IMG/VR virus record: IMGVR_UViG_3300042887_001308
Span: 1-27,636 of that record
DNA length: 27,636 nt
Reading direction: 5' to 3' (one strand)
Source of the DNA: a virus
Of this stretch, positions 2,586-17,126 are shown piece after piece. The notes beneath the pieces were generated by a model that was not told where the DNA came from, searched no databases, and saw only the letters and a program-made list of their open reading frames with translations. The translations under genes were made by a program, and so were the position numbers. Position 1 is the first letter of the stretch. Every line of letters begins with the position of its first letter.

Positions 2586-3865
2586 TGATTGAAGATAAAA
2601 TTTTAGAATTAGTTCGTGAAGCAAAACCAAAGTATTTACAGAACTACGACAACTTTAAACCTGGTGAAGATTATGTCATGTATTCAGGTCAACTTTGGGA
2701 CGAAAACGAATTGGCTGGTGCCGTCAAATCTTTATTGACAGGCAAATGGATTTCTGCTGGCGAAAGAGTTGAACAGTTTCAAATTAAATTCTCAAAGCGT
2801 TACAATGTAAAAGCATCACACATGGTTAACTCCGGTTCATCTGCCAACTTGGTGATGATTGCTGGTGTTAAAAAACATTTAGGTTGGAACGATGGTGATG
2901 AGGTCATTGTTTCACCTGTTGGTTTTCCAACTACAATTGCACCATTGGTTCAGAACAATCTTAAACCAGTATTTGTTGATATTGAATTTGATACATTGAA
3001 CTTTGATGTAAATTTAATTGAACAAAAGATTACACCAAAAACTAAAGCAATCATCGTGTCTCCTGTCATGGCAAATCCACCTGACATGGACAAAATACAC
3101 GATATCTGTTACAGAAATAACATCGTATTGATTGGTGATAACTGTGATACACTAGGCACAAAGTGGAATGGAAAACTAATTACTGATTTGTATTATTGTT
3201 GGTCAACATCATTCTATCCTGCTCATCACATTTCTACTGGTGAAGGCGGTATGGTATCATCTAACGATACGGCTTTAATTGATACGGTCCGTTCGTTTAG
3301 TTGGTGGGGTAGAGATTGTTATTGTGTTGGTTCAAACAATCAATTGCCATGTGGCACCTGTGGTAATCGCTTTGACCGGTGGTTGCCAGGTTATGATGGC
3401 ATTATCGACCACAAGTATGTGTTTGCAACTATGGGTTATAACTTAAAGCCACTAGATTTACAAGGTGCAATTGGTCTAGCACAGTTAGAAAAAGCAGATT
3501 ACATTGATAACAAGCGTAGAGAACATAAAAAGAGATTAGAAAGTATTTTAAAGAAACATCTAATGATTCGTGTTCCTGATACCTTAGCAAAAGCAGACCC
3601 ATCTTGGTTTGGTGTTCCAATTATTTGTGAATCACAAAAACAAAAAGAAAAATTAGTAGCACATTTTGAAGCAAATAAAATTCAAACAAGAAATTATTTT
3701 GCAGGTAACATTCTGTTGCATCCAGGCTACAAACATTTAGACGATGCAATGGATTATCCATTAGCAAACAAAGCACTATCACATGTCTTTATTCTTGGTT
3801 GCCCTCCATTTTGGAATGATAGTGTTTTTGATTATATAGAAAGTGTGGTGAAAAATGTTAATTAA
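2585..3865 (+). CDS. rfbH: RfbH-type NDP-4-keto-6-deoxyhexose 3-dehydratase
   Basis: A 426-residue fold-type I PLP/PMP enzyme of the DegT/DnrJ/EryC1/StrS group. The position normally held by the PLP-binding Lys is His214 (SFYPAHHISTGEGG), as in the dehydratases E1/RfbH and ColD. A Cys187-x57-Cys245-x-Cys247 pattern plus Cys256 and Cys259 matches the [2Fe-2S] ligand arrangement of the E1/RfbH branch, ruling in RfbH over ColD. The DHKYVFATMGYNLKPLDLQ segment is also typical of RfbH. The family removes the C3 hydroxyl of CDP-4-keto-6-deoxyglucose, the committed step to 3,6-dideoxyhexoses of O-antigens. It needs electrons from an E3-type reductase, which is not in this window. Length is normal for the family, with no break. 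Confidence 0.9.
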   Translation: MIEDKILELVREAKPKYLQNYDNFKPGEDYVMYSGQLWDENELAGAVKSLLTGKWISAGERVEQFQIKFSKRYNVKASHMVNSGSSANLVMIAGVKKHLGWNDGDEVIVSPVGFPTTIAPLVQNNLKPVFVDIEFDTLNFDVNLIEQKITPKTKAIIVSPVMANPPDMDKIHDICYRNNIVLIGDNCDTLGTKWNGKLITDLYYCWSTSFYPAHHISTGEGGMVSSNDTALIDTVRSFSWWGRDCYCVGSNNQLPCGTCGNRFDRWLPGYDGIIDHKYVFATMGYNLKPLDLQGAIGLAQLEKADYIDNKRREHKKRLESILKKHLMIRVPDTLAKADPSWFGVPIICESQKQKEKLVAHFEANKIQTRNYFAGNILLHPGYKHLDDAMDYPLANKALSHVFILGCPPFWNDSVFDYIESVVKNVN

Positions 3866-4043
3866 AGAAGAAAACGAATGCCGTTTATCGGTCATTAAAA
3901 CAGAAGTAAAAAATCCAGAAGGTTATACACAGATAACCTTAAATCGTGAAATTTTGAAAGACGGAAAAGTAATATCATATAATAAATTTGATATGTTTCT
4001 AACAACAGAAGAAATTTGTTCTCTCGTCAAAGCAATAGCATGA
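3855..4043 (+). CDS. small hypothetical protein
   Basis: A 62-residue protein with no motif I recognise. It reads as a compact, soluble, mixed beta/alpha sequence rich in Glu and Lys, ending in a helix (TTEEICSLVKAIA). The ATG lies 11 bases before the end of the rfbH-like gene, and its TGA stop overlaps the next ATG (ATGA). That tight coupling on both sides is the main reason to accept it as a gene. Confidence 0.6.
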   Translation: MLIKEENECRLSVIKTEVKNPEGYTQITLNREILKDGKVISYNKFDMFLTTEEICSLVKAIA

Positions 4044-4852
4044 TACAAGTATTTGGTGGTTCTGGCTTCGTTGGTTCTGAATTTGTTAAACAGAATCCTG
4101 GTTGTATAGTAAATGCTCGTGATGATTATAAGGTAAAAACTTATGACATTCTTTACATGATTTCTACTGTAACCAACTATAATGTCAAAACAGACCCATA
4201 TATTGACATTGACACCAATCTAACCACTTTGATGAGGGTGTTAGAACAATGTAGAGATTCACACCTGACATTCAACTTTATTAGTTCGTGGTTTGTTTAT
4301 GGTGAAACTGAAATGCCTGCAACTGAAGAATCGAATTGTTATCCAAATGGATTCTATTCAATTACTAAACGCTGTGCAGAGCAATTACTAATCTCTTATT
4401 GCGAAACATTTAAGATTAAGCATCGTATTCTTAGATTGGCCAATGTTGCAGGTTATGGTGATAAAAAGGCCTCACCACAAAAAAACGCACTTCAACATAT
4501 GATTAATGAATTGAAGGCAGGCCGTGATGTAAATGTATATGATGGTGGCAATCTATATCGTGATTATATTCATGTAAGTGATGCTGCTCGAGCAATCAAA
4601 TTAATCATGGAAAAAGGTGAAATCAACACCATCTATAATGTTGGCAATGGCAAACCTTTATTGTTTAAAGATATGATTGAGTATGCTAAAGAATTAATTG
4701 GTGGCGAAGGCAAATTAAACCCAATTGAAATACCACAGTTTCATAGAACGGTTCAGGTTCGTAGTATGTGGATGCTTAGTGATAAATTAAAATCTCTAGG
4801 TTATGAACCACAATACAATATGGAAGCAATCATTGAAGATATGGTGCGATGA
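4040..4852 (+). CDS. NAD(P)-dependent sugar reductase/epimerase (extended SDR)
   Basis: A 270-residue extended SDR. The start is ATG 4040, which overlaps the previous stop (ATGA) and places the Rossmann motif GGSGFVG at residues 6-12 as usual; an upstream in-frame TTG at 4016 would add eight residues with no role. Tyr106/Lys110 (YSITK) and the SSWFVYG strand (82-88) complete the catalytic set. There is no 4,6-dehydratase Asp-Glu signature. Lying two genes after an RfbH-like dehydratase, it could be the reductase that finishes a dideoxysugar, as abequose/paratose synthases do, but many SDRs look alike and this role is an inference. It overlaps the next gene by ATGA. Confidence 0.85.
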   Translation: MIQVFGGSGFVGSEFVKQNPGCIVNARDDYKVKTYDILYMISTVTNYNVKTDPYIDIDTNLTTLMRVLEQCRDSHLTFNFISSWFVYGETEMPATEESNCYPNGFYSITKRCAEQLLISYCETFKIKHRILRLANVAGYGDKKASPQKNALQHMINELKAGRDVNVYDGGNLYRDYIHVSDAARAIKLIMEKGEINTIYNVGNGKPLLFKDMIEYAKELIGGEGKLNPIEIPQFHRTVQVRSMWMLSDKLKSLGYEPQYNMEAIIEDMVR

Positions 4853-5496
4853 ATCTTTGTGTGTATCAAGCATACTATGATGATGCTCAAGTAAAACATT
4901 TAGATGCCGCTTTTGTACCTTTCGACAATCGAAAGAATGAATCACCACATTTGCGTGAATATCCAATGTGGAAAAAGTTATATGAAAAACATGCTGGCTC
5001 AGATGTGTATTGGGGTCTCATGTCATGGCGCTGGCACGAAAAGACAAACCTAGCAGGTTATCAGTTCACATCTTGGATTGAAAATACTCCTGGCTATGAC
5101 TGTTATCATTTTGACCCATTCAAACATCTAAGTAACGAATACATAAACTTGTGGGTGCAAGGTGACCAATGGCACTCAGGTATGTTAGAGTTTGCTAATC
5201 GTTTATTTCCAAAACTAGGCATTACAGTTCGAGCCGAAGATTTACAATATCGACCAGAAGATTTTGGCACATGCAATTACTATGTTGGTAACAGTAAATA
5301 TTGGACAAGTTTGCTTAGCTTTATGGACGAATGTTTAGCGATTGCAAACCAAGATGAAATCATGCATAAGTATTTGTATGTTGATGGCAGAATGTATAAT
5401 GGCCATGTGATACCAAATTTTTCATTTGTTATGGAAAGATTATTTTCATTACATAACTATTTGAAACCAGAATACAAAGTAAAAAGATATGATTAA
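4849..5496 (+). CDS. unknown protein in sugar cluster, possibly glycosyltransferase-like
   Basis: A 215-residue soluble protein rich in aromatic residues (Trp and Tyr). Visible features are a segment VYWGLMSWRWHEKT (53-66), a later EDFGTCNYYVGNSKYW stretch and a C-terminal VMERLFSLHNYL helix. I recognise no catalytic motif with confidence. The ATG overlaps the previous stop (ATGA) and the end overlaps the oxygenase start by 8 bases, so it belongs to the same translation unit as the sugar genes. A transferase acting on the cluster product is plausible but unproven. Confidence 0.6.
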   Translation: MNLCVYQAYYDDAQVKHLDAAFVPFDNRKNESPHLREYPMWKKLYEKHAGSDVYWGLMSWRWHEKTNLAGYQFTSWIENTPGYDCYHFDPFKHLSNEYINLWVQGDQWHSGMLEFANRLFPKLGITVRAEDLQYRPEDFGTCNYYVGNSKYWTSLLSFMDECLAIANQDEIMHKYLYVDGRMYNGHVIPNFSFVMERLFSLHNYLKPEYKVKRYD

Positions 5497-6268
5497 CCAG
5501 TTTGATTACGATAAATTAAGTAAAGAATTCCAAGAGGCAAAACCATTTCGCCATTGTATTATTGATAACTTCTTTGAAGATATTACTGCATTGGATTTGT
5601 CTAATGAATTTCCCGATTACAATGACCCAAATATCTGGTCAGTTTATCGTAATGCAATTGAGAACAAAAAACTCACACCACATTGGGACTTATTTCCTGC
5701 CAAAACATATCAGGCATTTACTTTGATGAATACACCTGGATTTGTTGAAAGTGTTAGGCTTATCACCGGTATACCTGACCTTGTTGCGGATTATGGTATG
5801 CATGGTGGTGGTTGGCATATGCATGGTCGTGGTGGTAAATTAAACATGCACAAAGATTATTCTATTCATCCAAAACTTGGCATGGAAAGAAGAATTAATA
5901 TCATTATCTACATGACACCAGATTGGAAAGAAGAATGGAATGGTGGCCTCGAATTCTGGTCACACGATTCAGAAAAGAATCTACCAAAAGAATGTGTTAC
6001 CAAAGTTTACAATAAATTCAATCGTGCTGTCTTGTTTGATACCACACAGAATTCGTGGCATGGTCTTCCAACAGAAATTGTATGTCCAGAAGGTGTCTAT
6101 CGTAAATCTTTGGCCATCTATTATATCTCTAAACCAAGACGAGGTGTGGAGACCCATGACCGAGCATATTTTGCACCCACCGCAGAGCAGGCAAATAATG
6201 AGGAAATACTCGATTTGATTAAAAAAAGGTCGAGTTCTAAGACCTCTGGTGAAGTTTACAGAACATAA
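5489..6268 (+). CDS. 2OG-Fe(II) oxygenase (prolyl 4-hydroxylase-like)
   Basis: A 259-residue 2-oxoglutarate/Fe(II)-dependent dioxygenase. The facial triad is visible: His121-x-Asp123 (MHKDYS) and distal His191 (SWHGLP), followed by Arg205 in the segment RKSLAIYYI, which would bind 2-oxoglutarate. INIIIYMTPDW and GGLEFW are the usual double-stranded beta-helix strands before and between the ligands. Such oxygenases are common in T4-like aquatic phages, often in glycan or structural gene clusters. The substrate may be a sugar, a protein side chain or a base, and the sequence does not say which. It closes the sugar block: its stop TAA overlaps a late-promoter motif for the next gene. Confidence 0.88.
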   Translation: MINQFDYDKLSKEFQEAKPFRHCIIDNFFEDITALDLSNEFPDYNDPNIWSVYRNAIENKKLTPHWDLFPAKTYQAFTLMNTPGFVESVRLITGIPDLVADYGMHGGGWHMHGRGGKLNMHKDYSIHPKLGMERRINIIIYMTPDWKEEWNGGLEFWSHDSEKNLPKECVTKVYNKFNRAVLFDTTQNSWHGLPTEIVCPEGVYRKSLAIYYISKPRRGVETHDRAYFAPTAEQANNEEILDLIKKRSSSKTSGEVYRT

Positions 6269-6305: not shown

Positions 6306-8837
6306 ATGAGATTTACTGATTTTCTGCAAGAGCAGAAAGAAAAACATGCGGTAATGGCATTTGGGCGTATGAACCCAATTACTGTTGGCCATGAAAAATT
6401 AGTCAATAAGGTCAAAGAAATTGCTGACAAAGTAGGCGGTTCAGCACATATTGTAGTTTCTCATTCACAAGACCCTAAGAAAAATCCTCTCAGTCCTTCG
6501 CAAAAACTTAAGCATGCCAAGCGTGCCTTCTCTGGCGTCAATGTATCAGCCTCAGATTCTTCTGCACCAAACTTTCTAGCACAAGCAGCCAAATTACATA
6601 AAGCCGGTGTAACTCATTTACACATGGTTGGCGGCCAAGACCGTGTAGATGAATACCATAAACTATTACACAAATACAATGGTGTAAAAGGGCCACATGG
6701 TTCTTTTAATTTCAAAAAGATTGAAGTTCATTCTGCTGGTGACCGTGACCCGGATGCCGAAGGTGTAGAAGGTATGTCCGCAAGTAAAATGCGTGAACAT
6801 GCTGCAAATGGTAACTTCAAAGAATTCCGTAAAGGTGTGCCGTCAAAAATGACCGATGCACACGCAAAAGAAATGTATAACCATGTTCGACAAGGCATGG
6901 GTGTCAATGAATCAATTGATGAAGATTTTGAAACCTTGCTGGTTGAAGGTGTGCATGACCAAGCAATTTTCAAAGCGGTGTTTCTTGCTGGTGGTCCAGG
7001 TTCTGGTAAAGATTATGTGCTTGATAACACATTACAAGGTCATGGTCTTACAGAAATCAATTCAGACAAAGCATTAGAGTTTTTGATGGACAAATCAGGT
7101 TTAGATAAAACCATGCCATCATCTGAACAAGAGAAACGAGATGCGGTTCGTGGTCGTGCAAAGAGCATGACAGAGTTACGCCAACGCCTTGCACTTCTTG
7201 GTCGCAATGGTTTAATTATCAATGGCACAGGTGATGACCATGAAAAGATTGGTCGTATTAAAAGCCGCTTAGAAGAAATTGGTTATGATACTTCTATGAT
7301 TATGGTAAACACCGATGATGAAGTATCAAAACAAAGAAACATAGAACGAGGCACTCGTGGTGGTCGCACCGTGCCAGAAGATATTCGTAAGCAAAAATGG
7401 GACGCCGTGCAAGCAGCAAGACCAGAACTTGCTAAGATGTTTGGTAACAAATACATGGAGTTTGACAATTCACAAGATTTGCGCCAAGCACCACCTGATG
7501 TTGTTAAAGCCAAAAAAGATGAGATGCTCGAACTCTTTAAAAATGTTAAAGCGTTTGTTGCAGAACCACCTTCATCAGAAGCAGCCTCAATGTGGGTTGC
7601 ACACGAATTAGATGTATCAGATAAATTGCCTGTACCAAAAGGTGGCGCAGAATTAACACCACACCCAAGTTCAAATGCTGCACAAGAAGCACGCAACATG
7701 GGATTACAATACTATGGGTTTGGTCGTTATGGTAAAAATGGCAAAGTTACACATCGCTCTATCCACGATAAACTTGTTGAGGTGCAGAAAGATGAACCAC
7801 AGCAACCAAATATTCCTGTGTCAGGCAGCTCAATGAAAAAGAAAACAGTCAACGAAGAATTTGAAGAGGTGTTTGCAGAGGACTTGCGTAAATGGTTTAG
7901 TAAGACAGACCCAGCAGGAGATTGGAAACGAATCAACAGTAAAGGTGAAGCAATTGGTCCTTGTGCAAGAGAACCTGGCGAACCAAAACCAAAATGCATG
8001 TCAAGAGCAAAGCGTGAATCTCTGACAAAACAAGAAAGAGCTGCAGCTGTAAGAGCTAAACGCAAACACGACCCAAATCCAGAACGCAAAGGTGCACCAA
8101 TTAATGTATCAAACTTTGGCAAAGGCAAACTATCAGAATCATATTCATTGTCTGATTCTGGTGCTTTAAACCTATTACTACTTGGTACAAACATAGACGA
8201 AATTAATTACGATAATTTTGAAGAAGAAAAACAACCTAAAATCCTTAAAGATAAAACAGGTAAAATAAAAACTTTCATGCTACGCAGAGCCGCAGCAAGA
8301 GAAGCACATACCATGAATGGTACCGTAATGCCATATAAGAATGGATATGTAATTAAATTAAATGAGGAGAATCAAAATGTTTCAAGCACTAATCAACTTA
8401 CTAAAAATCAAACCGAAAGAGCAACCAAAATCGAATCCTTCGGAAGATTCAGCGAAAGTGACCGAAGTTTCAACACCGAAGGTGTCGCAGAACTCACAAC
8501 CGGTCAAGAATACTCAAGCGCCGAAGGCATCACCGGCCCAGCAAACCAAGAAGCCACAGGGTCAACAAAAATCACACTCTCAAAAATCAGGCAACGCCAA
8601 AAAGAAAAAGTAAAAGAATCTATCGATAAAGGTATTGAACCTGGTTTGTCAATGGGCCAAAGTGGTGAAAACTTCTCTCGTAAAGGTTTAAAAGTAAAAC
8701 AAAATGTTAAACCTTTCGAAGAAGCAATTGGTGCTGGCGGTGAAGATGCTACATCAATGAGTGATTTTAATGATAATGTATTGAAACAAAAAGGTATCAA
8801 TATCAAAACATTTAAAGCAAAGAGACCAATAGGATGA
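6306..8837 (+). CDS. capsid-targeted nucleotidyltransferase/P-loop kinase polyprotein
   Basis: An 843-residue modular protein. Residues 1-9, MRFTDFLQE, resemble the T4 capsid-targeting peptide and end in a gp21-like L-x-E cleavage site. Residues about 14-195 are a cytidylyltransferase-like nucleotidyltransferase, with GRMNPITVGHEKL as the HxGH-like loop and SASKMREH as the second signature. A linker at 200-214 (IDE at 204-206, LVE at 212-214) leads to a P-loop kinase with GGPGSGKD (229-236) and an INSDK motif, similar to zeta-toxin or polynucleotide-kinase folds. After FAE at 523-525 comes a small Cys-containing basic module (DLRKWFSK to about 598), then KTFMLRRAAAREAHTMNG and a C-terminal SMGQSGENFSRKG module. 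A perfect GGAGG lies just upstream. Residues 691-769 coincide with an out-of-frame ORF. Confidence 0.85.
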   Translation: MRFTDFLQEQKEKHAVMAFGRMNPITVGHEKLVNKVKEIADKVGGSAHIVVSHSQDPKKNPLSPSQKLKHAKRAFSGVNVSASDSSAPNFLAQAAKLHKAGVTHLHMVGGQDRVDEYHKLLHKYNGVKGPHGSFNFKKIEVHSAGDRDPDAEGVEGMSASKMREHAANGNFKEFRKGVPSKMTDAHAKEMYNHVRQGMGVNESIDEDFETLLVEGVHDQAIFKAVFLAGGPGSGKDYVLDNTLQGHGLTEINSDKALEFLMDKSGLDKTMPSSEQEKRDAVRGRAKSMTELRQRLALLGRNGLIINGTGDDHEKIGRIKSRLEEIGYDTSMIMVNTDDEVSKQRNIERGTRGGRTVPEDIRKQKWDAVQAARPELAKMFGNKYMEFDNSQDLRQAPPDVVKAKKDEMLELFKNVKAFVAEPPSSEAASMWVAHELDVSDKLPVPKGGAELTPHPSSNAAQEARNMGLQYYGFGRYGKNGKVTHRSIHDKLVEVQKDEPQQPNIPVSGSSMKKKTVNEEFEEVFAEDLRKWFSKTDPAGDWKRINSKGEAIGPCAREPGEPKPKCMSRAKRESLTKQERAAAVRAKRKHDPNPERKGAPINVSNFGKGKLSESYSLSDSGALNLLLLGTNIDEINYDNFEEEKQPKILKDKTGKIKTFMLRRAAAREAHTMNGTVMPYKNGYVIKLNEENQNVSSTNQLTKNQTERATKIESFGRFSESDRSFNTEGVAELTTGQEYSSAEGITGPANQEATGSTKITLSKIRQRQKEKVKESIDKGIEPGLSMGQSGENFSRKGLKVKQNVKPFEEAIGAGGEDATSMSDFNDNVLKQKGINIKTFKAKRPIG
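8364..8369 (+). promoter_or_regulatory. internal Shine-Dalgarno GAGGAG
   Basis: GAGGAG lies 7 bases before ATG 8377 inside the 843-residue gene, in another frame. It is stronger than most ribosome binding sites in the window, although in the long frame it also encodes ordinary residues (Asn-Glu-Glu). Confidence 0.4.
8377..8613 (+). CDS. possible out-of-frame nested gene, basic low-complexity protein
   Basis: A 78-residue ORF entirely inside the 843-residue gene, in the +1 frame. It starts at ATG 8377 behind GAGGAG. The product begins with a short amphipathic segment (MFQALINLLKIKPKEQ), continues as a Ser/Pro/Gln/Lys-rich tail and ends in GNAKKKK. Against it: it uses CCG, TCG and GCG codons that are rare elsewhere here, and the long frame remains open throughout. 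In favour: the ribosome site, and the long frame being unusually rich in C-ending codons exactly over this stretch, as expected if both frames are constrained. It could be a true nested gene or an ancestral gene overprinted by read-through. Confidence 0.35.
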   Translation: MFQALINLLKIKPKEQPKSNPSEDSAKVTEVSTPKVSQNSQPVKNTQAPKASPAQQTKKPQGQQKSHSQKSGNAKKKK

Positions 8838-9328
8838 AAACATTTAAATCATTCATAGCGGAAGAAAAACCAAAAGATTATCCTGGTGAAGGTGGTAAAA
8901 CTTTTTCACCTACAGGAAAGACAGGCACTCACCGTGAAACAGGTGAAAAGACCTATGAGTATGCTGAGTATGATAAAGAAGGCAAAGCCACTGGTGCTCG
9001 CCATTATAAAAATATCCAAGGTAAGCACATGGGTGAAGAAGTTGAACTTGATGAAGTGGCCGCATGGCAACGCAAAGAAGGTAAATCTGAATCAGGTGGT
9101 TTAAATCGCAAAGGTATTGAATCGTACCGCCGTGAAAATCCAGGTTCAAAACTTTCTATGGCTGTCACTACAAAGCCAAGCAAACTAAAGCCAGGTTCAA
9201 AGGCAGCCAATCGCCGTAAATCATTCTGTGCTCGCATGGGTGGAATGAAGAAGCGTTTAACTTCTGCAAAGACAGCGAATGACCCGGATAGCCGTATCAA
9301 CAAAGCACTAAGAAAGTGGAATTGCTAA
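8834..9328 (+). CDS. capsid-targeted basic protein with internal cleavage-like site
   Basis: A 164-residue protein. The N-terminus MKTFKSFIAE is almost the T4 internal-protein leader (MKTYQEFIAE) and ends in I8-A9-E10, a good prohead-protease site. At 68-74, EEVELDE gives a second L-x-E site. It is followed directly by a strongly basic module (75-164) with RKEGKSESGGLNRKG, KPSKLKPGSKAANRRKSFCARMGGMKKR and ending RINKALRKWNC. Cleavage at both sites would release a roughly 90-residue, highly positive peptide that could bind packaged DNA. The ATG overlaps the previous stop (ATGA). Similar basic modules are frequent in aquatic T4-like phages; their function is unknown to me. Confidence 0.8.
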   Translation: MKTFKSFIAEEKPKDYPGEGGKTFSPTGKTGTHRETGEKTYEYAEYDKEGKATGARHYKNIQGKHMGEEVELDEVAAWQRKEGKSESGGLNRKGIESYRRENPGSKLSMAVTTKPSKLKPGSKAANRRKSFCARMGGMKKRLTSAKTANDPDSRINKALRKWNC

Positions 9329-9334
9329 TATAAT

Positions 9335-10750
9335 ATGACCCAATTTACGACACAAACAAATCAGTTTTTAAATACCAATAGGCACATCTATGAGGTCATG
9401 TATTTGGCCAATGGTGCCAATGGTGATATTGTGTCGACCGAAAATAGATTACCAGTAGATGCTGTTTATTCTGGTGCTACTGGTGATGCATTTGGGCGTT
9501 TGCGTGTTTCAAATCCATTTACACTTGGTGATTATAAACACCTTTATGGTATTGACCCAAATTTTATAGATTATACTGCAAATGGAGGAACTGTAACATT
9601 TGTTGGTAATACTGCTTCTGCAACATTGTCAACAAACAATAGCACATCATCGGTTGCAGTTCATCAAACTAAATTTTATCACGGTTATCAACCAGGTAAA
9701 TCACAAGTTATTCTTTCATCTGTTTGTTTTGGATATGCACAGCAAAATGTAACAAAACGAACCGGTTACTTTGATGACCGTGATGGAATTTATTTTGAAC
9801 AAGTTGGTTCAAATACATCAACCGGCACAGAAAACGGAACACTAAACTTTGTTATTCGCTCTTTTGTAAGTGGTACCGCATTAGAAACAGATGTTGGTTC
9901 TTATAAGCGTAGAGTACCGCAATCACAATGGAATATTGACCCATGTGACGGTACAGGACCATCAGGTTTTAATATTGATACATCTAAAACACAATTAATA
10001 TACATTGATTTTCAATGGTTAGGTGTTGGTCGTGTTCGTGTTGGATTTGTGCATGATGGTGCAATTATTATAGCACACGAATATTACAACTCAAATGTTT
10101 TAGATACTGTTTATCTTTCAAATCCTAATTTGCCAGTTCGTTGCGAAATAAGAAATACAGGAACAACAACTGGTGGTTCTATGAATCAAATTTGTTGCAC
10201 CGTAATTTCAGAAGGTGGTTATAATGAAGCCGGGATTGATTGGTCAATTGTAAATAATGCAAGAACAACTGCAACACCTGCTGCAACAGAATTACCTCTT
10301 ATTGCATTGAGATTAAAAAACACTTTTCAATCTTATCCAAATAGATTGAGTGTGAGATTGGATACTCTTTCGATGTATGCAGAAACAAACAGTATTCTTT
10401 TTAAAATTGTAAAATTACCAACTGCTGCCAGTTTAGCAAATAATACTGTCCCTCTAGTGTGGACTTCGGCTAATGACGATAGTGGTTGTGAATATTGCGT
10501 TAATGCAGACACATATGTAACCGCAAATGCAGATATATTGTTGTCTGGATTTGTTCCTGCTGGTGCTTCACAAAACTCTTTATCACCAGTAAATACTGGC
10601 GGTATTTCAGAAGCAAAGAAAAATATTATTACACAAAATTACGATTCATCGAATTCAGAAGTTTATGCTGTAATCGTAAGAACAATTACCACAGCTGCAC
10701 AGGCAACCGCAACTGTTGCTGCTGCCTTGCAATGGCGAGAAATTTATTAA
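9335..10750 (+). CDS. virion structural protein, probably tail or fibre associated
   Basis: A 471-residue Thr/Asn/Ser-rich protein with the composition and beta pattern of phage fibre or baseplate-decorating proteins. The segment GDAFGRLRVSNPFTLGDYKH (50-69) is a conserved block I associate with structural proteins of marine T4-like phages. It has no leader peptide or enzyme motif. It lies 6 bases after the capsid-targeted basic protein, between two genes of the internal-protein type, in the late region. Confidence 0.7.
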   Translation: MTQFTTQTNQFLNTNRHIYEVMYLANGANGDIVSTENRLPVDAVYSGATGDAFGRLRVSNPFTLGDYKHLYGIDPNFIDYTANGGTVTFVGNTASATLSTNNSTSSVAVHQTKFYHGYQPGKSQVILSSVCFGYAQQNVTKRTGYFDDRDGIYFEQVGSNTSTGTENGTLNFVIRSFVSGTALETDVGSYKRRVPQSQWNIDPCDGTGPSGFNIDTSKTQLIYIDFQWLGVGRVRVGFVHDGAIIIAHEYYNSNVLDTVYLSNPNLPVRCEIRNTGTTTGGSMNQICCTVISEGGYNEAGIDWSIVNNARTTATPAATELPLIALRLKNTFQSYPNRLSVRLDTLSMYAETNSILFKIVKLPTAASLANNTVPLVWTSANDDSGCEYCVNADTYVTANADILLSGFVPAGASQNSLSPVNTGGISEAKKNIITQNYDSSNSEVYAVIVRTITTAAQATATVAAALQWREIY

Positions 10751-10768
10751 AAAACTAGGAGAACTATA

Positions 10769-11641
10769 ATGAACCTTAAAAAAGACCTGTCAGGTGTTGC
10801 AGAAGCCGCATCCAAAATTATGGATGAACAATTGAAGGGCCAACAACATCAAATTGATAAAAACAAAAACAACAAAATTGATTCTGAAGATTTCAAAATT
10901 CTTCGTGGTGAAAAGAAAACACCAGTAAAAGAAGAAAAGGGTGCTAGCAAACCAGAAGAAGCTAAATTTCATGGTAAGTTAGATAAACTCGTTCATAAAA
11001 CTTTTGGCAAATCAAAAGAAGAAATGAAAAAAGAAGAAGTTGAACAAATTGACGAATACAAATCGGTTGGTGGTGTTTATAAACACAAAGGCACCTACGG
11101 CACAGAGAAATCTACCGAAGCCGGTTATACAGATTACGACAAAGAAAACGAAATGGCTAAAAAGAATTTGAAAGCCAAAGAACCTAAGAAATATGGTGCT
11201 CGTCAAAACTATGTCCGTTCTACCCGTGTTAACGAATCATTTACTGATATGCTCGAAGCATACAAACAAAATGGTTTGTCTGTATTTGTTAAAGAAGAAC
11301 CAGACAATGAGCAATATCATAAAGAAGTGGAAGACCAACTTGCCGTTGCTACAGGTAAAAAGAAGCAACCTAAGTTATCAACAGGCGAAACAGTTGGTGT
11401 AAAATCAATGGCAGAAGAAACACACACCGAAGTTGAAGTGTATGATTTTACCGATGTAAACGGTGTTAAAGTTTCTACAATCGATTTAGAAGAGCGTTCA
11501 CTTACAGAACCAGAAGCAAAGAAAAAAGAAGAAATTGTTAAATCAATGAAAAAGAAAATGCCTGGTTTCAAAGAGCGTTACGGTGAGCGTGCTAAATCAG
11601 TAATGTATGCAACCGCAACCAAGATGGCTAAAAAAGATTAA
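10769..11641 (+). CDS. modular Lys/Glu-rich head protein with EF-hand-like loop
   Basis: A 290-residue, very charged protein. Residues 30-41 fit the 12-residue EF-hand/dockerin loop DxNxNxxIDxxD. EEVEQIDE at 89-96 is the same octapeptide as in the next gene and would be an I-x-E protease site separating the EF-hand part from the rest. The C-terminal module GFKERYGERAKSVMYATATK is a block I associate with proteins of other T4-like aquatic phages. It has no clear capsid-targeting leader; it starts MNLKKDLSGV. A GGAG ribosome site precedes the ATG. An internal core or scaffold-like role is inferred from composition and neighbours. Confidence 0.72.
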   Translation: MNLKKDLSGVAEAASKIMDEQLKGQQHQIDKNKNNKIDSEDFKILRGEKKTPVKEEKGASKPEEAKFHGKLDKLVHKTFGKSKEEMKKEEVEQIDEYKSVGGVYKHKGTYGTEKSTEAGYTDYDKENEMAKKNLKAKEPKKYGARQNYVRSTRVNESFTDMLEAYKQNGLSVFVKEEPDNEQYHKEVEDQLAVATGKKKQPKLSTGETVGVKSMAEETHTEVEVYDFTDVNGVKVSTIDLEERSLTEPEAKKKEEIVKSMKKKMPGFKERYGERAKSVMYATATKMAKKD

Positions 11642-11642
11642 T

Positions 11643-13007
11643 ATGAAAAAATTGTCTGAAATTTTTAGCGAGCAACACAGAGAGAAAGGTAGGTTTAAAC
11701 CTACCACTCCTCGCATGGTGCCAAATAAAGCCGTTGCTTCACCAAGACCAGAGTCCGATAGTGCCAATGTTGCTCTTAAAGAAAGATGTTGGACAGGTTA
11801 TCGCCAAATTGGTCTAAAGAAAAAAGGTGATAAGATGGTGCCAAATTGTGTGCAAGATTCCGTTGAAGTAAAAGAAGGATTGGACAGTAAAGAAGAAATG
11901 CAAGTCCAAGGAACTGCAGCTATGACTTTGACAGACAAACCAAATAAAGAACCAATGAAGAAGTTAAAAGAAGCCTCGGCTGCGGCAATTGCAGCTGCAA
12001 CTGCCATTTCTAAAAAGAAATCTGGTAACTATGATAAAAAAGGTATGAGAGTTAAACCATACAAAAATCCTGATGCACCAAATGTCAAATCAAATGCCGA
12101 GCGGAGAAAAGAAATGAACGAGCAAAAAGATGAAAGAGAGTATGATTACGAAGGTGATATGGCTAAAACACAGCTAAAAACAATTCTTCGTAACGCACAA
12201 AAGATTCACGATATGATTGAAGATGATGAAAATTTACCTGAGTGGGTTCAATCAAAAATTACATTGGCGAAAGATTATATTGTTGTAGCTGCAAATTACT
12301 TAGAGAGTGAAATGGACGAAGAAGTTAAGAAATCCGATATTCCTGCATACTTGCGTAAACAACAAGGTCAATCACCATTGAAATTATCTGATTTAAAACG
12401 CAAAGATACAATCTCTGATAAAGAAAACTTAGCTAAATTGCGTAATGAAGGTGCTGTACCTGCAAAAGAAAAAACAGTTATGGTTCGTCATAAAACATCT
12501 GGTAAAGAATTAGTTGTTACTCAGCAGAAAGCAAAAGAACTTCAGAAACATGACTATCATCCTGTAAAAGAAGAAGTTGAACAGATTGATGAGAAGAATG
12601 TTCCAACTTCACCAGAAAAATGGGCACAAGCAAAAGCACAAGCGAAAGCAAAGTTTGATGTTTACCCATCAGCATACGCAAACGGTTGGGCTGCAAAGAA
12701 ATATAAAGAAATGGGTGGTGGTTGGAAATCTGTATCAGAAGCAAAAGAGCCACCATTTGACAAACCATACACCACAACAAAAGGCACTATAACCGATAAA
12801 TCTGGTGCCAAACATACACCTATGTCCCGTGCCAGAGATATTGCTCGTATGGCGATGAAGAAACAATCAGAAACAATGAAAAAGATGCCTGTAAAAGAAG
12901 AAACACGCAAGGCAGCTATTGTAAAAGAAGTAATGAAAAAGAAGAAGGCTTCTGAAGATGCCTTTCAGAAAGACCCTGAGCTATCAACTACACTAACAAA
13001 AGTATAG
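11643..13007 (+). CDS. capsid-targeted multi-module protein
   Basis: A 454-residue protein. I start it at ATG 11643, one base after the previous stop; an in-frame upstream start at 11607 overlaps the previous gene and would bury the leader. The N-terminus MKKLSEIFSE resembles a capsid-targeting peptide. Modules in order: a CWTGYRQIGLKKKGDKMVPN block (49-68), an Ala-rich segment, a helical module DMAKTQLKTILRNAQKIHDM through EWVQSKITLAKDYI (172-213), a HKTSGKELVVTQQKAKEL block (283-300), the linker EEVEQIDE (310-317), then a KFDVYPSAYANGWAAKKYKE module (337-356) and a basic C-terminal tail. Such bead-like arrangements suggest a cleavable polyprotein of small DNA- or capsid-associated modules. 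Confidence 0.78.
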   Translation: MKKLSEIFSEQHREKGRFKPTTPRMVPNKAVASPRPESDSANVALKERCWTGYRQIGLKKKGDKMVPNCVQDSVEVKEGLDSKEEMQVQGTAAMTLTDKPNKEPMKKLKEASAAAIAAATAISKKKSGNYDKKGMRVKPYKNPDAPNVKSNAERRKEMNEQKDEREYDYEGDMAKTQLKTILRNAQKIHDMIEDDENLPEWVQSKITLAKDYIVVAANYLESEMDEEVKKSDIPAYLRKQQGQSPLKLSDLKRKDTISDKENLAKLRNEGAVPAKEKTVMVRHKTSGKELVVTQQKAKELQKHDYHPVKEEVEQIDEKNVPTSPEKWAQAKAQAKAKFDVYPSAYANGWAAKKYKEMGGGWKSVSEAKEPPFDKPYTTTKGTITDKSGAKHTPMSRARDIARMAMKKQSETMKKMPVKEETRKAAIVKEVMKKKKASEDAFQKDPELSTTLTKV

Positions 13008-13020
13008 ATTTGAGTGCAGG

Positions 13021-13028
13021 CATAAATA
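13021..13028 (+). promoter_or_regulatory. T4-like late promoter, CATAAATA
   Basis: CATAAATA in the 57-base gap before the 187-residue virion-type gene, with no -35 box. It is identical to the motifs at 6264 and 26412. Confidence 0.65.
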
Positions 13029-13064
13029 GATTATCAAATTCCACAATTTTTAGGAGAGAAAACA

Positions 13065-13628
13065 ATGTCACTTTGGGGAAATTTAGACGCAAGTAATAAT
13101 GCGCCAAAACAGACCGACACAACTGGTTACGGTGGTGATACGCCACAAGTAACTGCCAATGGTCAAGTATATTACGCAAATACAGCAATTAATGCTTACA
13201 TTGAAAACGCAGCTATTGGTGTTTTTGGTGTAGATGCTTCTGAGCAGGCAGCTGCAACATCAGCACAAGGTGTTCCACAACACGCAGGTTGGGTTATTCG
13301 CAAAGTTGGTATGGGCCCAATTGCAGCAATCACCGCTAACGCAGGTGCAGTTGGTGTAAACAGCTATATCACATTTGCTGCTGGTAACGGCATCGGTGCA
13401 ACAACAGGTAATACTGCTGCTAATGCACAAATTTCTGTAAACACAGCTGGTTATATCACAAGCATTACAATTAACAATCCAGGTTTATACGCTAACACAC
13501 CTATTGCAACACCAAATACAGGTAATGCTGTGTTTACAATTACAATGGGCGGTCGTGCAAATCGTGTTCAAACTGAAACAGTTGTTGCCATGGGTTCCAT
13601 GTATGGTGACGGTGGTAATGTTTACTAA
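13065..13628 (+). CDS. virion structural protein
   Basis: A 187-residue Ala/Gly/Thr/Asn-rich protein with beta-rich composition, starting MSLWGNLDASNNAPK. The MSLWG start and the later segment AGWVIRKVGMGPIAAITANAG resemble small virion proteins of marine T4-like phages. A GGAGAG ribosome site precedes the ATG, behind a late promoter. The stop overlaps the next ATG (TAATG). Exact location in the particle is unknown. Confidence 0.65.
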   Translation: MSLWGNLDASNNAPKQTDTTGYGGDTPQVTANGQVYYANTAINAYIENAAIGVFGVDASEQAAATSAQGVPQHAGWVIRKVGMGPIAAITANAGAVGVNSYITFAAGNGIGATTGNTAANAQISVNTAGYITSITINNPGLYANTPIATPNTGNAVFTITMGGRANRVQTETVVAMGSMYGDGGNVY

Positions 13629-14056
13629 TGCGATTTAAACAGTTTGTTGAAGAATTGACCAGTATTGAATCTGGTCAAGCAATAGAAGCTCACGAACCTA
13701 CGGGTGAAGGGTCATCAGCAATTGATAACCCAAAAATCCGTATGGAGATAAACTATCGCTTAACAAACGAGTTGTATAGTCCTTTTCTCTCTCCAGAAGG
13801 TGGTATACAGGCAATTCGTAAAGTGCTACATAGGTATGGTTTTGACCTACCAGCACTTTACGATGCTGACCCCGAAGGAGATGAACTCGTTATTGAGTTG
13901 AATCAGTTTGGCCAGGAAGATTTGGCAAGCAACATATACATCCTTTATTATCTTTCCGATGAAGGTCATTATGAGTTTTTTGCGGAAGTTGGTGATGATG
14001 AACGCATGGACGAATTAATGGACGAAGGCGGCGAGGACAACCAAGAAATAGAATAA
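13628..14056 (+). CDS. acidic protein with capsid-targeting-like N-terminus
   Basis: A 142-residue acidic protein. MRFKQFVEE matches the leader pattern of the other internal-protein candidates, with V7-x-E9 as a possible cleavage point. The body holds INYRLTNELYSPFLSPEGGI and IRKVLHRYGFDLP, which look like a small helical fold, and ends in a Glu/Asp-rich tail (DDERMDELMDEGGEDNQE). It is TAATG-coupled to the structural gene before it. Function unknown; the leader suggests a head location. Confidence 0.65.
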   Translation: MRFKQFVEELTSIESGQAIEAHEPTGEGSSAIDNPKIRMEINYRLTNELYSPFLSPEGGIQAIRKVLHRYGFDLPALYDADPEGDELVIELNQFGQEDLASNIYILYYLSDEGHYEFFAEVGDDERMDELMDEGGEDNQEIE

Positions 14057-14058
14057 TA

Positions 14059-14448
14059 ATGTTTGAAAATTTAAATAATGATAATGTGATGTTATATGCA
14101 ACTAAGGCATATGATAAGCCTAACTGCATAATGAGTGAGTTTAAAGAAGATATGAAACGATTCAATTACTTAAAAAGATTGTTTCGTAGATATCGTAAAG
14201 TAAATGAGTTAAGAGAACAATTGGTTTTAAATCATTTGGTGGTTCTTAACAATGTTTTTGGTCCAGAAGTAACGACACGCCTGTTGTTCTTTCAAATGGC
14301 CAAAGAAGATTATTCAGCACTTAAAACATATTTGTTGTTTTTAAGTTGTATGCCAGAAAAAGTGCGTGGCATTAGAGGGCAAGATATTCTTTCTTCAGAG
14401 ATTCCCGTAGATATGACCATTGCACAAGCACTAAGACAAATAAAATGA
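14059..14448 (+). CDS. conserved phage hypothetical protein
   Basis: A 129-residue, mostly helical soluble protein. The pattern EFKEDMKRFNYLKRLFRRYRK followed by LVLNHLVVLNNVFGPEVTTRLLFF resembles a family common in marine T4-like phages, whose function I do not know. It begins 2 bases after the previous stop and overlaps the next start by ATGA, in the virion gene block. Confidence 0.7.
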   Translation: MFENLNNDNVMLYATKAYDKPNCIMSEFKEDMKRFNYLKRLFRRYRKVNELREQLVLNHLVVLNNVFGPEVTTRLLFFQMAKEDYSALKTYLLFLSCMPEKVRGIRGQDILSSEIPVDMTIAQALRQIK

Positions 14449-15152
14449 TAATTGGTCCAGGAATTACAATTGGTTTAGGCACCACCATTAGTCGTGATGC
14501 TGGCACATATACTTTACAAGTAGGCACAAAAGCACCAGTTTTAGGTGCAGGTGCTCAAAGTCCTTTTCCTGCTTCCAACTGGATTTCAATTGTATCTTCA
14601 ACTGGTGACGATGCAAATACAAATGTGTCATTACCTTTTACATGGACATACAACAACACAGGATATACTTCGTTTTTCCCAAATTCAAATTATTATATAA
14701 CATTTGGCTCTGGTTCAAATGTTTTTAATTCGTTGAGTGTTAACAATCCTGCTTTAAATAAGATTTTTTTTGCTGGTGCAGATAATTCTTGGCAAAGAGT
14801 ATCTTCGTTTACTTCAGGTACAGATTACAAAAGGTTGCGTTGGGAAGGCACAGCAGCTACCTCTGGCACGCCAGGAAATCCAAACATGGTTTATGAATTA
14901 ACTTTCTTTAATCCAAGCTTAACAGGTAATGTGCCTTGGTTAGAATTGTTGGTTGGAGTGCAAGCAAGAGGAAATTCAAATCCAGCAATTATTTCTGGTT
15001 TGTATAGCCAAACCGCAAAATTAGCAGGTGGTGATTTAGGACCATCTAATCGTGGTGTTACAGCTAATCAAAGTTATGTAATGGTTGGCAATTCTACTGG
15101 AACTTCGTGGACAGTTTACACTGGCTACAATGTTGGTGGCACTGGATATTAA
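14445..15152 (+). CDS. adhesin or fibre-like virion protein
   Basis: A 235-residue Ser/Thr/Asn/Gly-rich protein of beta-rich composition. The first residues MIIGPGITI closely match the start of the following LamG-like protein (MIIGSGITF), suggesting a common docking tag with different exposed domains. The rest resembles a receptor-binding or decoration domain, with alternating aromatic and small residues. It has no enzyme motif. It is ATGA-coupled to the gene before it. Confidence 0.6.
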   Translation: MIIGPGITIGLGTTISRDAGTYTLQVGTKAPVLGAGAQSPFPASNWISIVSSTGDDANTNVSLPFTWTYNNTGYTSFFPNSNYYITFGSGSNVFNSLSVNNPALNKIFFAGADNSWQRVSSFTSGTDYKRLRWEGTAATSGTPGNPNMVYELTFFNPSLTGNVPWLELLVGVQARGNSNPAIISGLYSQTAKLAGGDLGPSNRGVTANQSYVMVGNSTGTSWTVYTGYNVGGTGY

Positions 15153-15156
15153 ATTT

Positions 15157-15192
15157 ATGAAAAAACATTTTTTCTTTCTAAAAGGTGTATAG
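15157..15192 (+). CDS. possible 11-codon leader peptide
   Basis: ATG 15157 opens MKKHFFFLKGV and ends in TAG, whose last base is the first base of the next gene's GTG start. The short ORF also spans a GAAAAAA/TTTTTTC inverted repeat (15159-15174). It may only re-load ribosomes onto the GTG start. Chance cannot be excluded. Confidence 0.25.
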   Translation: MKKHFFFLKGV

Positions 15193-15944
15193 TGATTATT
15201 GGTTCAGGTATTACTTTTCAATCTGGTATCACAGTTATTGGTGATTCTTCAGCTATAGGTAATACCGCAAGCACAGTAACACCATCAACAAGTGGTACAG
15301 TAGGTGTAGTTGCTACATCACCTTTTGGTAGTGGAAACAGTTATCAGATAACTTATAAGTCAACCGCACCATATAGTTTTTTATCGACAACAGGTAATTC
15401 TGGTTATGCATTTGGAACAGGTGATTATACAATTGAATGGTTTCAATATCAAACGGATAGTGTTACTTTTCCAAGAATATTTTGGTATGGTACCAGTTCA
15501 ATCGCTCAATACGGTGTAAGTATTGAGGGAGGAACTTTTTATTATTGGCCAGGAAATTCACCTACTGCACTAATTTCTTCCGGTAATATTGGAACATATA
15601 AAAATGTTTGGGTTCATTTTGCAATTGTAAGAATTAGTGGTAGATTGTATGCATATAAAGATGGTGTATTAAAAAGTACCGCAGGCGGTGTGGTCAACAC
15701 TACAAACCATACAGATTCATCAAGCACATTCTACATTGGTAGTAAGGCGGGTGGTGGTTTAGCTTCAGAACAATTTGGTGGCAATATTCAAAGTTTCCGT
15801 ATTTTGAAAGGTGTAGGTGTTTATACTGGTAACTTTACAACACCAACTTCGCTATTAGCACAAACGCAAAGTGCAAATCCTTATGGAGGAGCAAATACAA
15901 GTGCAATTACCGCAGGACAATGTAGTTTATTGATAAACGCATAG
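15192..15944 (+). CDS. LamG/ConA-like lectin-domain virion protein
   Basis: A 250-residue protein starting at GTG 15192 with AAAGG upstream. After the MIIGSGITF tag, residues from about 65 form a laminin-G/concanavalin-type jellyroll: FGTGDYTIEWFQYQ, then VWVHFAIVRISGRLYAYKDG, then FYIGSKAGGG and IQSFRILKGVGVYTGNFTTP. This order is typical of LamG-type domains in phage fibres that bind glycans. It is probably a tail-fibre or head-decoration adhesin. The GTG start is supported by the tag it shares with the neighbour. Confidence 0.75.
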   Translation: MIIGSGITFQSGITVIGDSSAIGNTASTVTPSTSGTVGVVATSPFGSGNSYQITYKSTAPYSFLSTTGNSGYAFGTGDYTIEWFQYQTDSVTFPRIFWYGTSSIAQYGVSIEGGTFYYWPGNSPTALISSGNIGTYKNVWVHFAIVRISGRLYAYKDGVLKSTAGGVVNTTNHTDSSSTFYIGSKAGGGLASEQFGGNIQSFRILKGVGVYTGNFTTPTSLLAQTQSANPYGGANTSAITAGQCSLLINA

Positions 15945-15952
15945 AATAAATA
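15945..15952 (+). promoter_or_regulatory. T4-like late promoter variant, AATAAATA
   Basis: AATAAATA keeps the ATAAATA core and lies only 7 bases before ATG 15960, so any transcript from it would be almost leaderless for that gene. It is weaker than the three CATAAATA sites because of this position. Confidence 0.35.
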
Positions 15953-15959
15953 GACAACT

Positions 15960-16283
15960 ATGAAAAAGAAAATCACATCACTAGATAAATTTCGTCAGGC
16001 AGCGGCCGAAAGAGAAAAAAAGCACGCTGAATTAGAAAAACAAATGAAGGCTCGTCATGCAGCCGGAAAAGAAGATTTAAAAGGCGCAATTGACCGCTTA
16101 CAAAAACAGGTTAACAGAGAAGATGTAAGTATGGTTGGTGGTGCACCTGCAAACAATGTTGGAGGCGGTGATGTTGCTGGTCTTGGTGTTGGCCCACAAG
16201 GCGAACCAGGAGTTAAATTACGCAACAAAAAGAAAGTTGTTCCGTTTGCAATTTTTACAAGAAAGCCTGTAATTAAAAAATGA
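15960..16283 (+). CDS. basic hypothetical phage protein
   Basis: A 107-residue protein. The first half is a charged helix (AAEREKKHAELEKQMKARH) and the second half is a Gly-rich block (MVGGAPANNVGGGDVAGLG, then GPQGEPGVK) ending in a basic VPFAIFTRKPVIKK tail. This Gly-rich/basic block resembles modules of multi-module head proteins in related phages. A head-associated role is possible. The end overlaps the next ATG. Confidence 0.6.
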   Translation: MKKKITSLDKFRQAAAEREKKHAELEKQMKARHAAGKEDLKGAIDRLQKQVNREDVSMVGGAPANNVGGGDVAGLGVGPQGEPGVKLRNKKKVVPFAIFTRKPVIKK

Positions 16284-16711
16284 TAATGTGGTTTTTAAGT
16301 TCGTGGATTAGTTACATTGTTCATGCCGCCTTAATTGTCGGTGTGGTTGGAACATTTTTTGGTTCAATACTGAATAAAGTTCCATTCATTAACAATTATG
16401 CTTCTATTCTTAGAGCTATTGCATTACCTTTGTTTATTGCTGCGGTATTTGCAGAAGGTTATTTGTATGCTTCTAAATCTTGGATTGAAGAAGCAAAAAA
16501 ATATGAAGAAAAAGTTAAGGTTGCAGAGCAGCAATCGAAAGATGCCAATACAAAGTTAACAAAGGAATTGGCAAATAAAAATAAAGAAATCAAACAACAA
16601 CAAGTTATTATAAAAGAAAAAATTAAAGAAGTTCAGGTCAAAGTAAATGCTGACTGTAAAGTGGCACCAGAGGCAATTAATATACACAATGAGGCAACAA
16701 AAGTAAAATGA
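16280..16711 (+). CDS. inner-membrane spanin candidate (Rz-like)
   Basis: A 143-residue membrane protein with two hydrophobic segments at about 7-31 and 43-63, then a long charged coiled coil (65-120) rich in Lys, Glu and Gln, and a Cys at 126. An N-terminal membrane anchor plus a periplasmic coiled coil fits an i-spanin. Two segments are more than the usual one, so a different membrane role remains possible. The next gene is a small lipoprotein overlapping it by ATGA, the usual order of an i-spanin/o-spanin pair. ATG 16280 overlaps the previous stop; ATG 16286 is an alternative. Confidence 0.6.
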   Translation: MIMWFLSSWISYIVHAALIVGVVGTFFGSILNKVPFINNYASILRAIALPLFIAAVFAEGYLYASKSWIEEAKKYEEKVKVAEQQSKDANTKLTKELANKNKEIKQQQVIIKEKIKEVQVKVNADCKVAPEAINIHNEATKVK

Positions 16712-16968
16712 AATATATTGCTCTACTATTACCTCTATTTCTAATTGGTTGCCAAGCGGTGCCTGTGAAGATGAGTTTTCCAGAAGCACCAACAGAGATT
16801 ATGCAGGCCTGTCCTGGTTTGAAACAGTTAAAAGAAAATGCAGAAATGAGTGATGTGCTAGAAGTGGTAACTGCCAACTATTCACAATATCACGAATGTA
16901 AAGTAAAAGTTGATGCCTGGATAGAATGGTATAAACAACAGAAACAAATTGCGGATAGTGTAAAATGA
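16708..16968 (+). CDS. outer-membrane spanin candidate (Rz1-like lipoprotein)
   Basis: An 86-residue lipoprotein. The signal peptide MKYIALLLPLFLIGC ends in the lipobox LIGC with Cys15 as the lipidated residue; the next residues are Gln-Ala rather than Asp, which favours outer-membrane sorting. The mature part contains ACPGLKQLKENAEM and a short helix ending WIEWYKQQKQ. Placed directly after a coiled-coil membrane protein in the lysis region, it is likely the o-spanin that completes the envelope-spanning complex. Confidence 0.7.
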   Translation: MKYIALLLPLFLIGCQAVPVKMSFPEAPTEIMQACPGLKQLKENAEMSDVLEVVTANYSQYHECKVKVDAWIEWYKQQKQIADSVK

Positions 16969-17126
16969 AAACACTAAAACAATTTATAAATGAAACCATC
17001 GTAAGAGTTGATGGTAAGTATAGATTGGTTTCCAAGAAAACAGGTCGCAATCTTGGCACTTATAATACAAAAGAAGGTGCGATGAAGCGAGAGCGCCAAG
17101 TTCAATTTTTTAAGAGGCAAGGATGA
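16965..17126 (+). CDS. small capsid-targeted-like basic protein
   Basis: A 53-residue ORF starting ATG 16965 inside the previous stop (ATGA) and ending in a TGA that overlaps the next ATG. The N-terminus MKTLKQFINE is the same leader type as T4 internal proteins, with I8-N9-E10 as cleavage site. The remainder is basic: VDGKYRLVSKKTGRNLGTY, then AMKRERQVQFFKRQG. Removing the leader would leave a 43-residue positively charged peptide. It sits within the lysis genes, away from the other candidates. Confidence 0.65.
   Translation: MKTLKQFINETIVRVDGKYRLVSKKTGRNLGTYNTKEGAMKRERQVQFFKRQG

Follow-up and report, generated by a model that had tools for sequence, protein, structure and literature searches.

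Why do five proteins encoded in one viral genome fragment begin with nearly the same nine or ten residues? The fragment, IMG/VR record IMGVR_UViG_3300042887_001308, is a virus record of 27,636 bases (hereafter the window, meaning the whole stretch analyzed). The original prediction held that these N-termini are capsid-targeting sequences (CTSs) of the kind carried by internal proteins of bacteriophage T4. All five N-termini are present as claimed, and the shared leader is real. We favor an explanation, to which we give a probability of roughly three in four, in which T4 CTS-type leaders carry cargo into the prohead, a gp21-type prohead protease cuts off the leader and cuts at internal sites, and the released modules are delivered with the DNA. 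The proteins and their leaders are as follows (aa, amino acids; ranks and E values are from the scoring matrix described below).

6306..8837, + strand: predicted leader-bearing polyprotein of 843 aa (NMNAT/cytidyltransferase, P-loop kinase, DLRKWF module, basic tail)
6306..6332, + strand: leader MRFTDFLQE, predicted cut after Glu9; hydrophobic-x-E in 13/13 close orthologs
8834..9328, + strand: leader-bearing protein of 164 aa with a C-terminal DUF6321 (PF19846, 1.6e-17)
8834..8863, + strand: leader MKTFKSFIAE, predicted cut after Glu10; rank 1 of 41, E=0.0003
11643..13007, + strand: predicted leader-bearing polyprotein of 454 aa (CW..NCV module, YPSAYANGW module)
11643..11672, + strand: leader MKKLSEIFSE; rank 3 of 41, E=0.0029
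13628..14056, + strand: leader-bearing protein of 142 aa with an acidic tail; E=0.0083
13628..13654, + strand: leader MRFKQFVEE; orthologs have MRFREYLQE and MKFKEFLTE
16965..17126, + strand: protein of 53 aa with leader MKTLKQFINE (16965-16994) and SKKTG module; rank 2 of 41, E=0.0019

A regular expression built to cover T4 IPIII and the five window leaders matched 4 of the 41 called window genes, compared to 0.07 expected from shuffled N-termini. The fifth match requires that the 454-aa protein start at 11643 rather than at 11607, where its longest frame opens; position 11643 is an ATG directly 3' of the upstream gene's stop, and the ortholog in relative G012 likewise begins MKKLSEIFS. A scoring matrix trained solely on packaged or head-protease-processed leaders of other phages (T4 internal proteins, Alt and gp24; S-CREM2 and S-SCSM1 virion proteins) placed the five leaders at ranks 1-5 among the 41 genes (E 0.0003-0.018), with E=0.13 at rank 6. 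As a control, the regular expression picked 6 of 263 T4 genes, namely ipII, ipIII, alt, gp24, gp2, and 61.1. Three of these encode internal proteins (IPII, IPIII, and Alt), gp24 is a gp21 cleavage substrate, gp2 protects the DNA ends, and 61.1 is uncharacterized. Specificity is imperfect, as a UvsY-looking gene beside gp23 (G011 48038, G012 20906; MKNLDEVLEE) also scores, probably as a false positive.

Within the T4 CTS, targeting is the task of residues 4 and 7, and processing is permitted by those at 8 and 10; the motif behind which gp21 cleaves is L/I-x-E (PMC9026906). Hydrophobic or aromatic residues occupy positions 4 and 7 in all five window leaders (3 and 6 in the two 9-mers), and the leaders at 6306 (LQE), 8834 (IAE), and 16965 (INE) end in L/I-x-E; those at 11643 and 13628 end in F-S-E and V-E-E. 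The T4 sequence quoted in the original prediction is carried by IPII and IPIII (MKTYQEFIAE), but IPI, which had been included with them, has the longer leader MKTFKEFTSTTTPVSTITE.

Comparison of N-termini across the phage and its relatives, which had been suggested as a check, shows that orthologs keep leader-type starts. The close relatives are IMG/VR contigs, mostly with 69-80% identity across the 843-aa protein; more distant orthologs of that protein (44-52% across the NMNAT module) retain MKSFKNLIQE, MKAYTQFLKE, and MKRYSQFLKE. Orthologs of the 142-aa protein end their leaders in L-Q-E and L-T-E, and its weak homologs in HTVC008M and Methylophilales phage Melnitz begin MKSFKDFQNVNE and MKNFKNHIAE. 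The proposal that the leader is a portable capsid address is supported by orthologs of the 164-aa protein, which have unlike sequences between the leader and the common DUF6321 and break at or near the Glu, as in MKSFKSYITE/EQPKDY, MKSFKSFITE/ESNGGT, and MKSFKSYIAE/RCWDGH (here and below, a slash within a sequence marks the position after the Glu). This is the behavior of a portable leader. The claim that the bodies are unrelated holds to the extent that they have no strong mutual similarity (the best body-to-body BLAST match, 7e-4, involves a basic linker). It fails for the proteins at 6306, 8834, and 11643, each of which matches a different part of phrog_727; these three are thus in part modules shuffled within a single family. 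No Pfam or PHROG family of the T4 IPI, IPII, or IPIII bodies was found among the matches of the window proteins. We propose that the leaders serve as capsid-targeting propeptides, by which unrelated proteins would be carried as cargo to the core of the prohead.

The protease is found in the relatives. A gp21-type protease (PF03420), which the original prediction had proposed to look for, occurs in 14 of the 15 related genomes examined. Ten records lie behind the close-relative loci; 3 contain gp23, and the same 3 contain the protease, whereas the other records apparently stop short of the head genes. The major capsid protein gp23 has hydrophobic-L-x-E at the T4 maturation position in 12 genomes, including relatives G011 and G012 (FLTE in T4, ILQE and ILME in the closest relatives). 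These sites match the leader ends, so one consensus is common to both. By analogy with T4, the protease would cut after the leader Glu, at hydrophobic-x-E, and the leaders would thus be removed in the head.

Published cyanophage proteomics places leader-bearing homologs in virus particles. The S-CREM2 virion proteome comprises 52 proteins (PMC10665884 Table 3). Five of 6 strict-leader genes of S-CREM2, compared to 47 of 210 others, are in this mass spectrometry (MS) list (Fisher p=0.0034, deposited starts), with the regular expression having been set before the S-CREM2 and S-SCSM1 genomes were examined; the leaders of both phages are also in the training set of the matrix. The five are a SAM hydrolase (MKDFDSFLEE), ORF13 (MKDLHSFLTE), a kinase (MKRFDAFLTE), a cytidylyltransferase (MKNFSSFLTE), and ORF136 (MQTFSMFFSE). 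A relaxed expression lost specificity in S-CREM2 (5/10 MS-detected, p=0.06), and the strict form was therefore kept. In S-SCSM1, the sole strict-leader gene among 259 called encodes the virion-detected NMNAT, and the cluster syntenic with the window is mostly annotated as virion proteins. Pooling the two phages places 6 of the 7 leader-bearing proteins in virions (p ~0.0003, with the S-SCSM1 gene total taken as about 282). In S-CRM01, the kinase, which has been reported from virions (PMC10665884), begins MISFDQFLSE, and the NMNAT homolog begins MKLFNQFFKE. Those refuting conditions of the original prediction that could be approached came out in its favor, and packaging of leader-bearing proteins is well supported. 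One could instead suppose that these are ordinary infection-time metabolic enzymes, that the leader likeness reflects coincidence or a bias at translation starts, and that detection in virions reflects contamination, which the S-CREM2 (PMC10665884) and S-SCSM1 authors name as a possible source of the enzymes. We consider this very improbable given the leader statistics from both the regular expression and the matrix, the enrichment of leaders among virion proteins, and the conservation of the Glu across distant orthologs. For the cyanophage virion enzymes, among them NMNAT, SAM hydrolase, and kinase, the leader argues for true packaging over contamination.

A feature overlooked in the original prediction is that the leader-type site recurs inside the window proteins, at the borders of modules. 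The predicted internal cuts are these.

6945..6947, + strand: Glu214 of the 843-aa protein, ETLLVE/GVHDQ, at the NMNAT/kinase border; conserved 13/13
7878..7880, + strand: Glu525 of the 843-aa protein, EEVFAE/DLRKWF; conserved 13/13
9053..9055, + strand: Glu74 of the 164-aa protein, EVELDE/VAAWQ, ahead of DUF6321; border recurs
12591..12593, + strand: Glu of VEQIDE/KNVPTSP in the 454-aa protein; hydrophobic-x-E in 8/8 distinct borders

Residues 9-210 of the 843-aa protein match phrog_3041 (5.8e-68) and contain the nucleotidyltransferase motifs NPITVGHE and SASKMRE, and on this family match and these motifs we assign them as an NMNAT/cytidyltransferase. Residues ~218-414 resemble a P-loop kinase (AAA_33, 9.1e-9; Zeta_toxin, 1.4e-9; adenylate kinase 1 in PDB, 2e-4), and residues 526-600 form the Cys-rich basic DLRKWF module (phrog_727). 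The same borders are gene starts in other phages. The kinase module, which follows ETLLVE/GVHDQAIFK in the window, is a separate gene beginning MIPFILKE/GLYDPGIFK in HTVC008M and MKTFAELQE/GVYDPNIFK in Melnitz; the internal EEVFAE/DLRKWF corresponds to a gene start MLKFKSFAVE/DLRKWF at locus L065, and EVELDE/VAAWQ to MLKFKDFILE/VAAWQ at locus L066. In the 454-aa protein, the borders LKE/RCW and QIDE/KNVPTSP recur among homologs. Cyanophage chains join several of these modules; one, S-SCSM1 gp029, carries a virion-protein annotation, and another multi-module chain, S-CREM2 ORF160, is MS-detected. From these sequences we infer that the cargo is partly made as polyproteins, with VEQIDE- and VELDE-type linkers serving as prohead protease sites between NMNAT, P-loop kinase, and small Cys-rich basic modules. 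Since the sites separate modules, prohead maturation would free them as individual parts inside the head.

Two other outcomes of packaging have to be weighed. Proteins of the prohead core or scaffold, like T4 gp22, gp67, and gp68, are degraded by gp21 and their fragments exit the head, and the multiple L/I-x-E sites and low-complexity basic or acidic stretches of the window proteins resemble core proteins, of which gp22 and gp67 are split into numerous pieces (PMC9026906). Such a fate is improbable for the window proteins because conserved enzyme folds lie between the sites and because homologs of the NMNAT and the Cys-rich modules were detected in purified mature virions; these homologs are consistent with retention of the modules. 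Alternatively, the leader may be a packaging address that is removed while the internal hydrophobic-x-E sequences stay uncut, leaving whole multidomain proteins like the terminally processed T4 Alt. T4 internal proteins are trimmed mainly at their ends (PMC9026906), and conserved hydrophobic-x-E sequences occur inside the kinase fold (E250, E290, E324, and E358), so not every match is a cut. We regard this alternative as unlikely, though to be taken seriously, since the sites lie exactly at module borders, the same borders are leader-bearing gene starts in other phages, and the 196-aa NMNAT domain is without any L/I-x-E. It accepts packaging and differs only over internal cutting, so its probability overlaps that of the explanation we favor.

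Besides the kinase-fold matches and the contamination raised by the proteomics authors, several observations weigh against the favored explanation. No prohead protease was found in the 27.6-kb window. At P3, F or V replaces the strict L/I of the T4 gp21 motif (L/I-x-E) in two of the leaders, and the E525 site is F-x-E. By the regular expression, leader genes are few in P-SSM4, Syn9, and S-SCSM1 and absent in G001, and S-SCSM1 gp030 (MKTFKQFMSE) lacks a virion-protein annotation. In favor of the explanation, Glu is at P1 in 93/131 distinct borders over seven modules, compared to a 6.5% background; because the border sequences are related and their alignments took the window as anchor, this figure is descriptive and carries no probability.

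If the favored explanation is correct, the released modules would be delivered to the host along with the DNA; co-ejection is plausible. The most likely role of the NMNAT (and kinase), exerted as infection begins, would then be in host NAD or nucleotide metabolism or against an NAD-depleting defense. The likely benefit would be that both enzymes arrive before phage transcription and uphold NAD or nucleotide pools. One guess, from their composition, is that the Cys-rich basic modules could bind the packaged DNA. We see an even chance that the arrangement is general, such that a large group of aquatic T4-like phages encodes capsid polyproteins: a single translation product would enter the prohead by means of a 9-10-residue address and be cut by the head protease at hydrophobic-x-E linkers (including the recurring VEQIDE and VELDE types), and the resulting set of enzymes and basic, Cys-rich proteins would be injected with the genome.

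The setting of the cluster resembles that in Kyanoviridae. Resembling stretches are present in HTVC008M, Melnitz, P-SSM4, Syn9, S-SCSM1, and S-CRM01, and the window's gene order, as read from its open reading frames, is leader cluster, gp61-like primase, thyX-like gene, and ribonucleotide reductase. No tRNA was detected, and no late promoters (TATAAATA or CTAAATA) were found in the window. Directly upstream of the leader cluster (12-6268) are sugar or surface-polysaccharide-type genes, including two epimerase-like proteins, one aminotransferase-like protein, and one 2OG-oxygenase-like protein; this block was not seen at the corresponding place of the compared isolates. Two further genes are of note.

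10769..11641, + strand: protein of 290 aa with an EF-hand-like repeat and RYGERAKSVMY module, without a canonical leader; site IDLEE/RSL
15960..16283, + strand: possible gp61.1-like protein (EDVSMVGGAPANNVGGGDVAGLGVGPQGEPGV), by position upstream of gp61

The 290-aa protein is likely a sixth member of the set: its IDLEE/RSL site is present in 13/13 homologs, and orthologs begin MNPFRKVYLE/QLKGDQHK and MKSFLTFAE/ALKGKQHK. The AlphaFold model of the 142-aa protein, of moderate quality (pLDDT 75, pTM 0.66), has two helices, a three-strand sheet, and a helix. Its good BFVD matches are only to uncharacterized phage proteins (best E 2e-8), an Acb1-annotated match is weak (7e-4, low TM), and no PDB match was found at E<=0.001. 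With matches that are uncharacterized or weak, we claim no function for this protein.

Close to the gp61 primase gene lies a small gene whose product is similar to the N-terminal arm of that phage's major capsid protein, immediately past the gp21 site (T4 gp61.1 KE/DMVAGDSGGNPENISIGTTSGAVVNKGP and gp23 TE/AEIGGDHGYNATNIAAGQTSGAVTQIGP; Syn9 TTGYTGGDAATGPTAGYDPV and TTGYTGGDTVTGPVAGFDPV). Such loci are at T4 NC_000866 18966-19130, Syn9 154444, P-SSM4 157936-158475, S-CREM2 128342-129235, and S-CRM01 L245:133-327. The gene is by far the best arm match in T4, Syn9, P-SSM4, and S-CREM2, and among 12 arms the one from its own phage is its best or second-best fit. A CTS leader is also present on T4 gp61.1, the S-CREM2 counterpart is MS-detected in virions, and some records label gp61.1 "putative major capsid protein". 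For the window gene at 15960-16283, the likeness in its lineage is too weak to claim.

Two other families have leaders or similar sequences. S-CREM2 ORF12 (L227:4705-7314), which is virion-detected and annotated as Cas9/Csn1, has a leader-like LRFASFMAE about 16 residues in; the leader-like stretch is likewise displaced in similar-looking proteins of S-B68, S-N03, and S-CRM01. In L245:3702-4253, L247:4638-6389, and ORF12, a conserved SRW..W stretch precedes the displaced leader (LRFASFMAE, LSLDSFIKE, LGFSSFIAE). A protein beginning MNFTEFLTE/GKEGKNVHLEHIEDE is encoded in relatives (G012 61193-62419, G011 11251, HTVC008M 104818, S-CRM01 L245:7462-8655). Its family has a KWDGAPA motif like ATP-dependent nucleic acid ligases, so it is possibly a packaged ligase; homologs in P-SSM4 and Syn9 are without the leader.

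A short leader would permit many of the proteins that a T4-like phage carries into its host to be predicted from the genome alone. The linkers occur in several DUF and PHROG families without known function, for which a role as protease sites is suggested, and the window leaders are natural variants for the T4 protein-packaging toolkit. The polyprotein strategy is best known from RNA viruses, and if internal cutting is true, the phage head would be a polyprotein processing chamber. The CTS and its portability were already known, and a review suggests that T4-like phages load various proteins with a CTS (PMC9026906). Our search, which did not extend to subscription papers, found no description of a CTS in marine phages or of phage polyproteins cut by a prohead protease. 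As far as searched, three things are new: CTS use by aquatic phages in their NMNAT clusters, the connection of the CTS to virion enzymes already published, and the layout as polyproteins.

Among known systems, the T4 CTS of IPI, IPII, and IPIII (Alt and gp24 are other gp21 substrates processed at the N-terminus) is alike in that the N-terminal leader has 10 residues, of which 4, 7, and 8 are hydrophobic and the last is Glu10, in the unrelated cargo behind it, in the gp21-type protease of the window's relatives, and in the matching capsid-protein site. It differs in that the window cargo consists of NMNAT, kinase, and Cys-rich modules, two leaders are 9-mers, and internal sites lie between modules. 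The ejection proteins of SPN3US and phiKZ also lose N-terminal propeptides to a prohead protease after a short Glu-ending motif, but their propeptides are mostly much longer, the protease has diverged, and the available portions of those reports describe no module-by-module cutting of cargo. Polyvalent proteins (Iyer et al. 2017, PMC5512222) are multidomain, are believed to be packaged and then delivered along with the DNA, and have been proposed to undergo proteolytic processing. In the window, by contrast, processing is predicted to occur in trans by the head protease; a resident peptidase domain (zincin or assemblin-like), which not all polyvalent proteins have, gave no Pfam match. The cyanophages S-SCSM1, S-CREM2, and S-CRM01 have homologous, virion-reported NMNAT-type enzymes with the same leader, although the available parts of their reports propose no targeting signal and leave contamination possible. 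Like the window's, the S-SCSM1 and S-CRM01 clusters sit upstream of gp61; the cyanophage kinase is APH-like, whereas that of the window is of the P-loop type and is fused to NMNAT.

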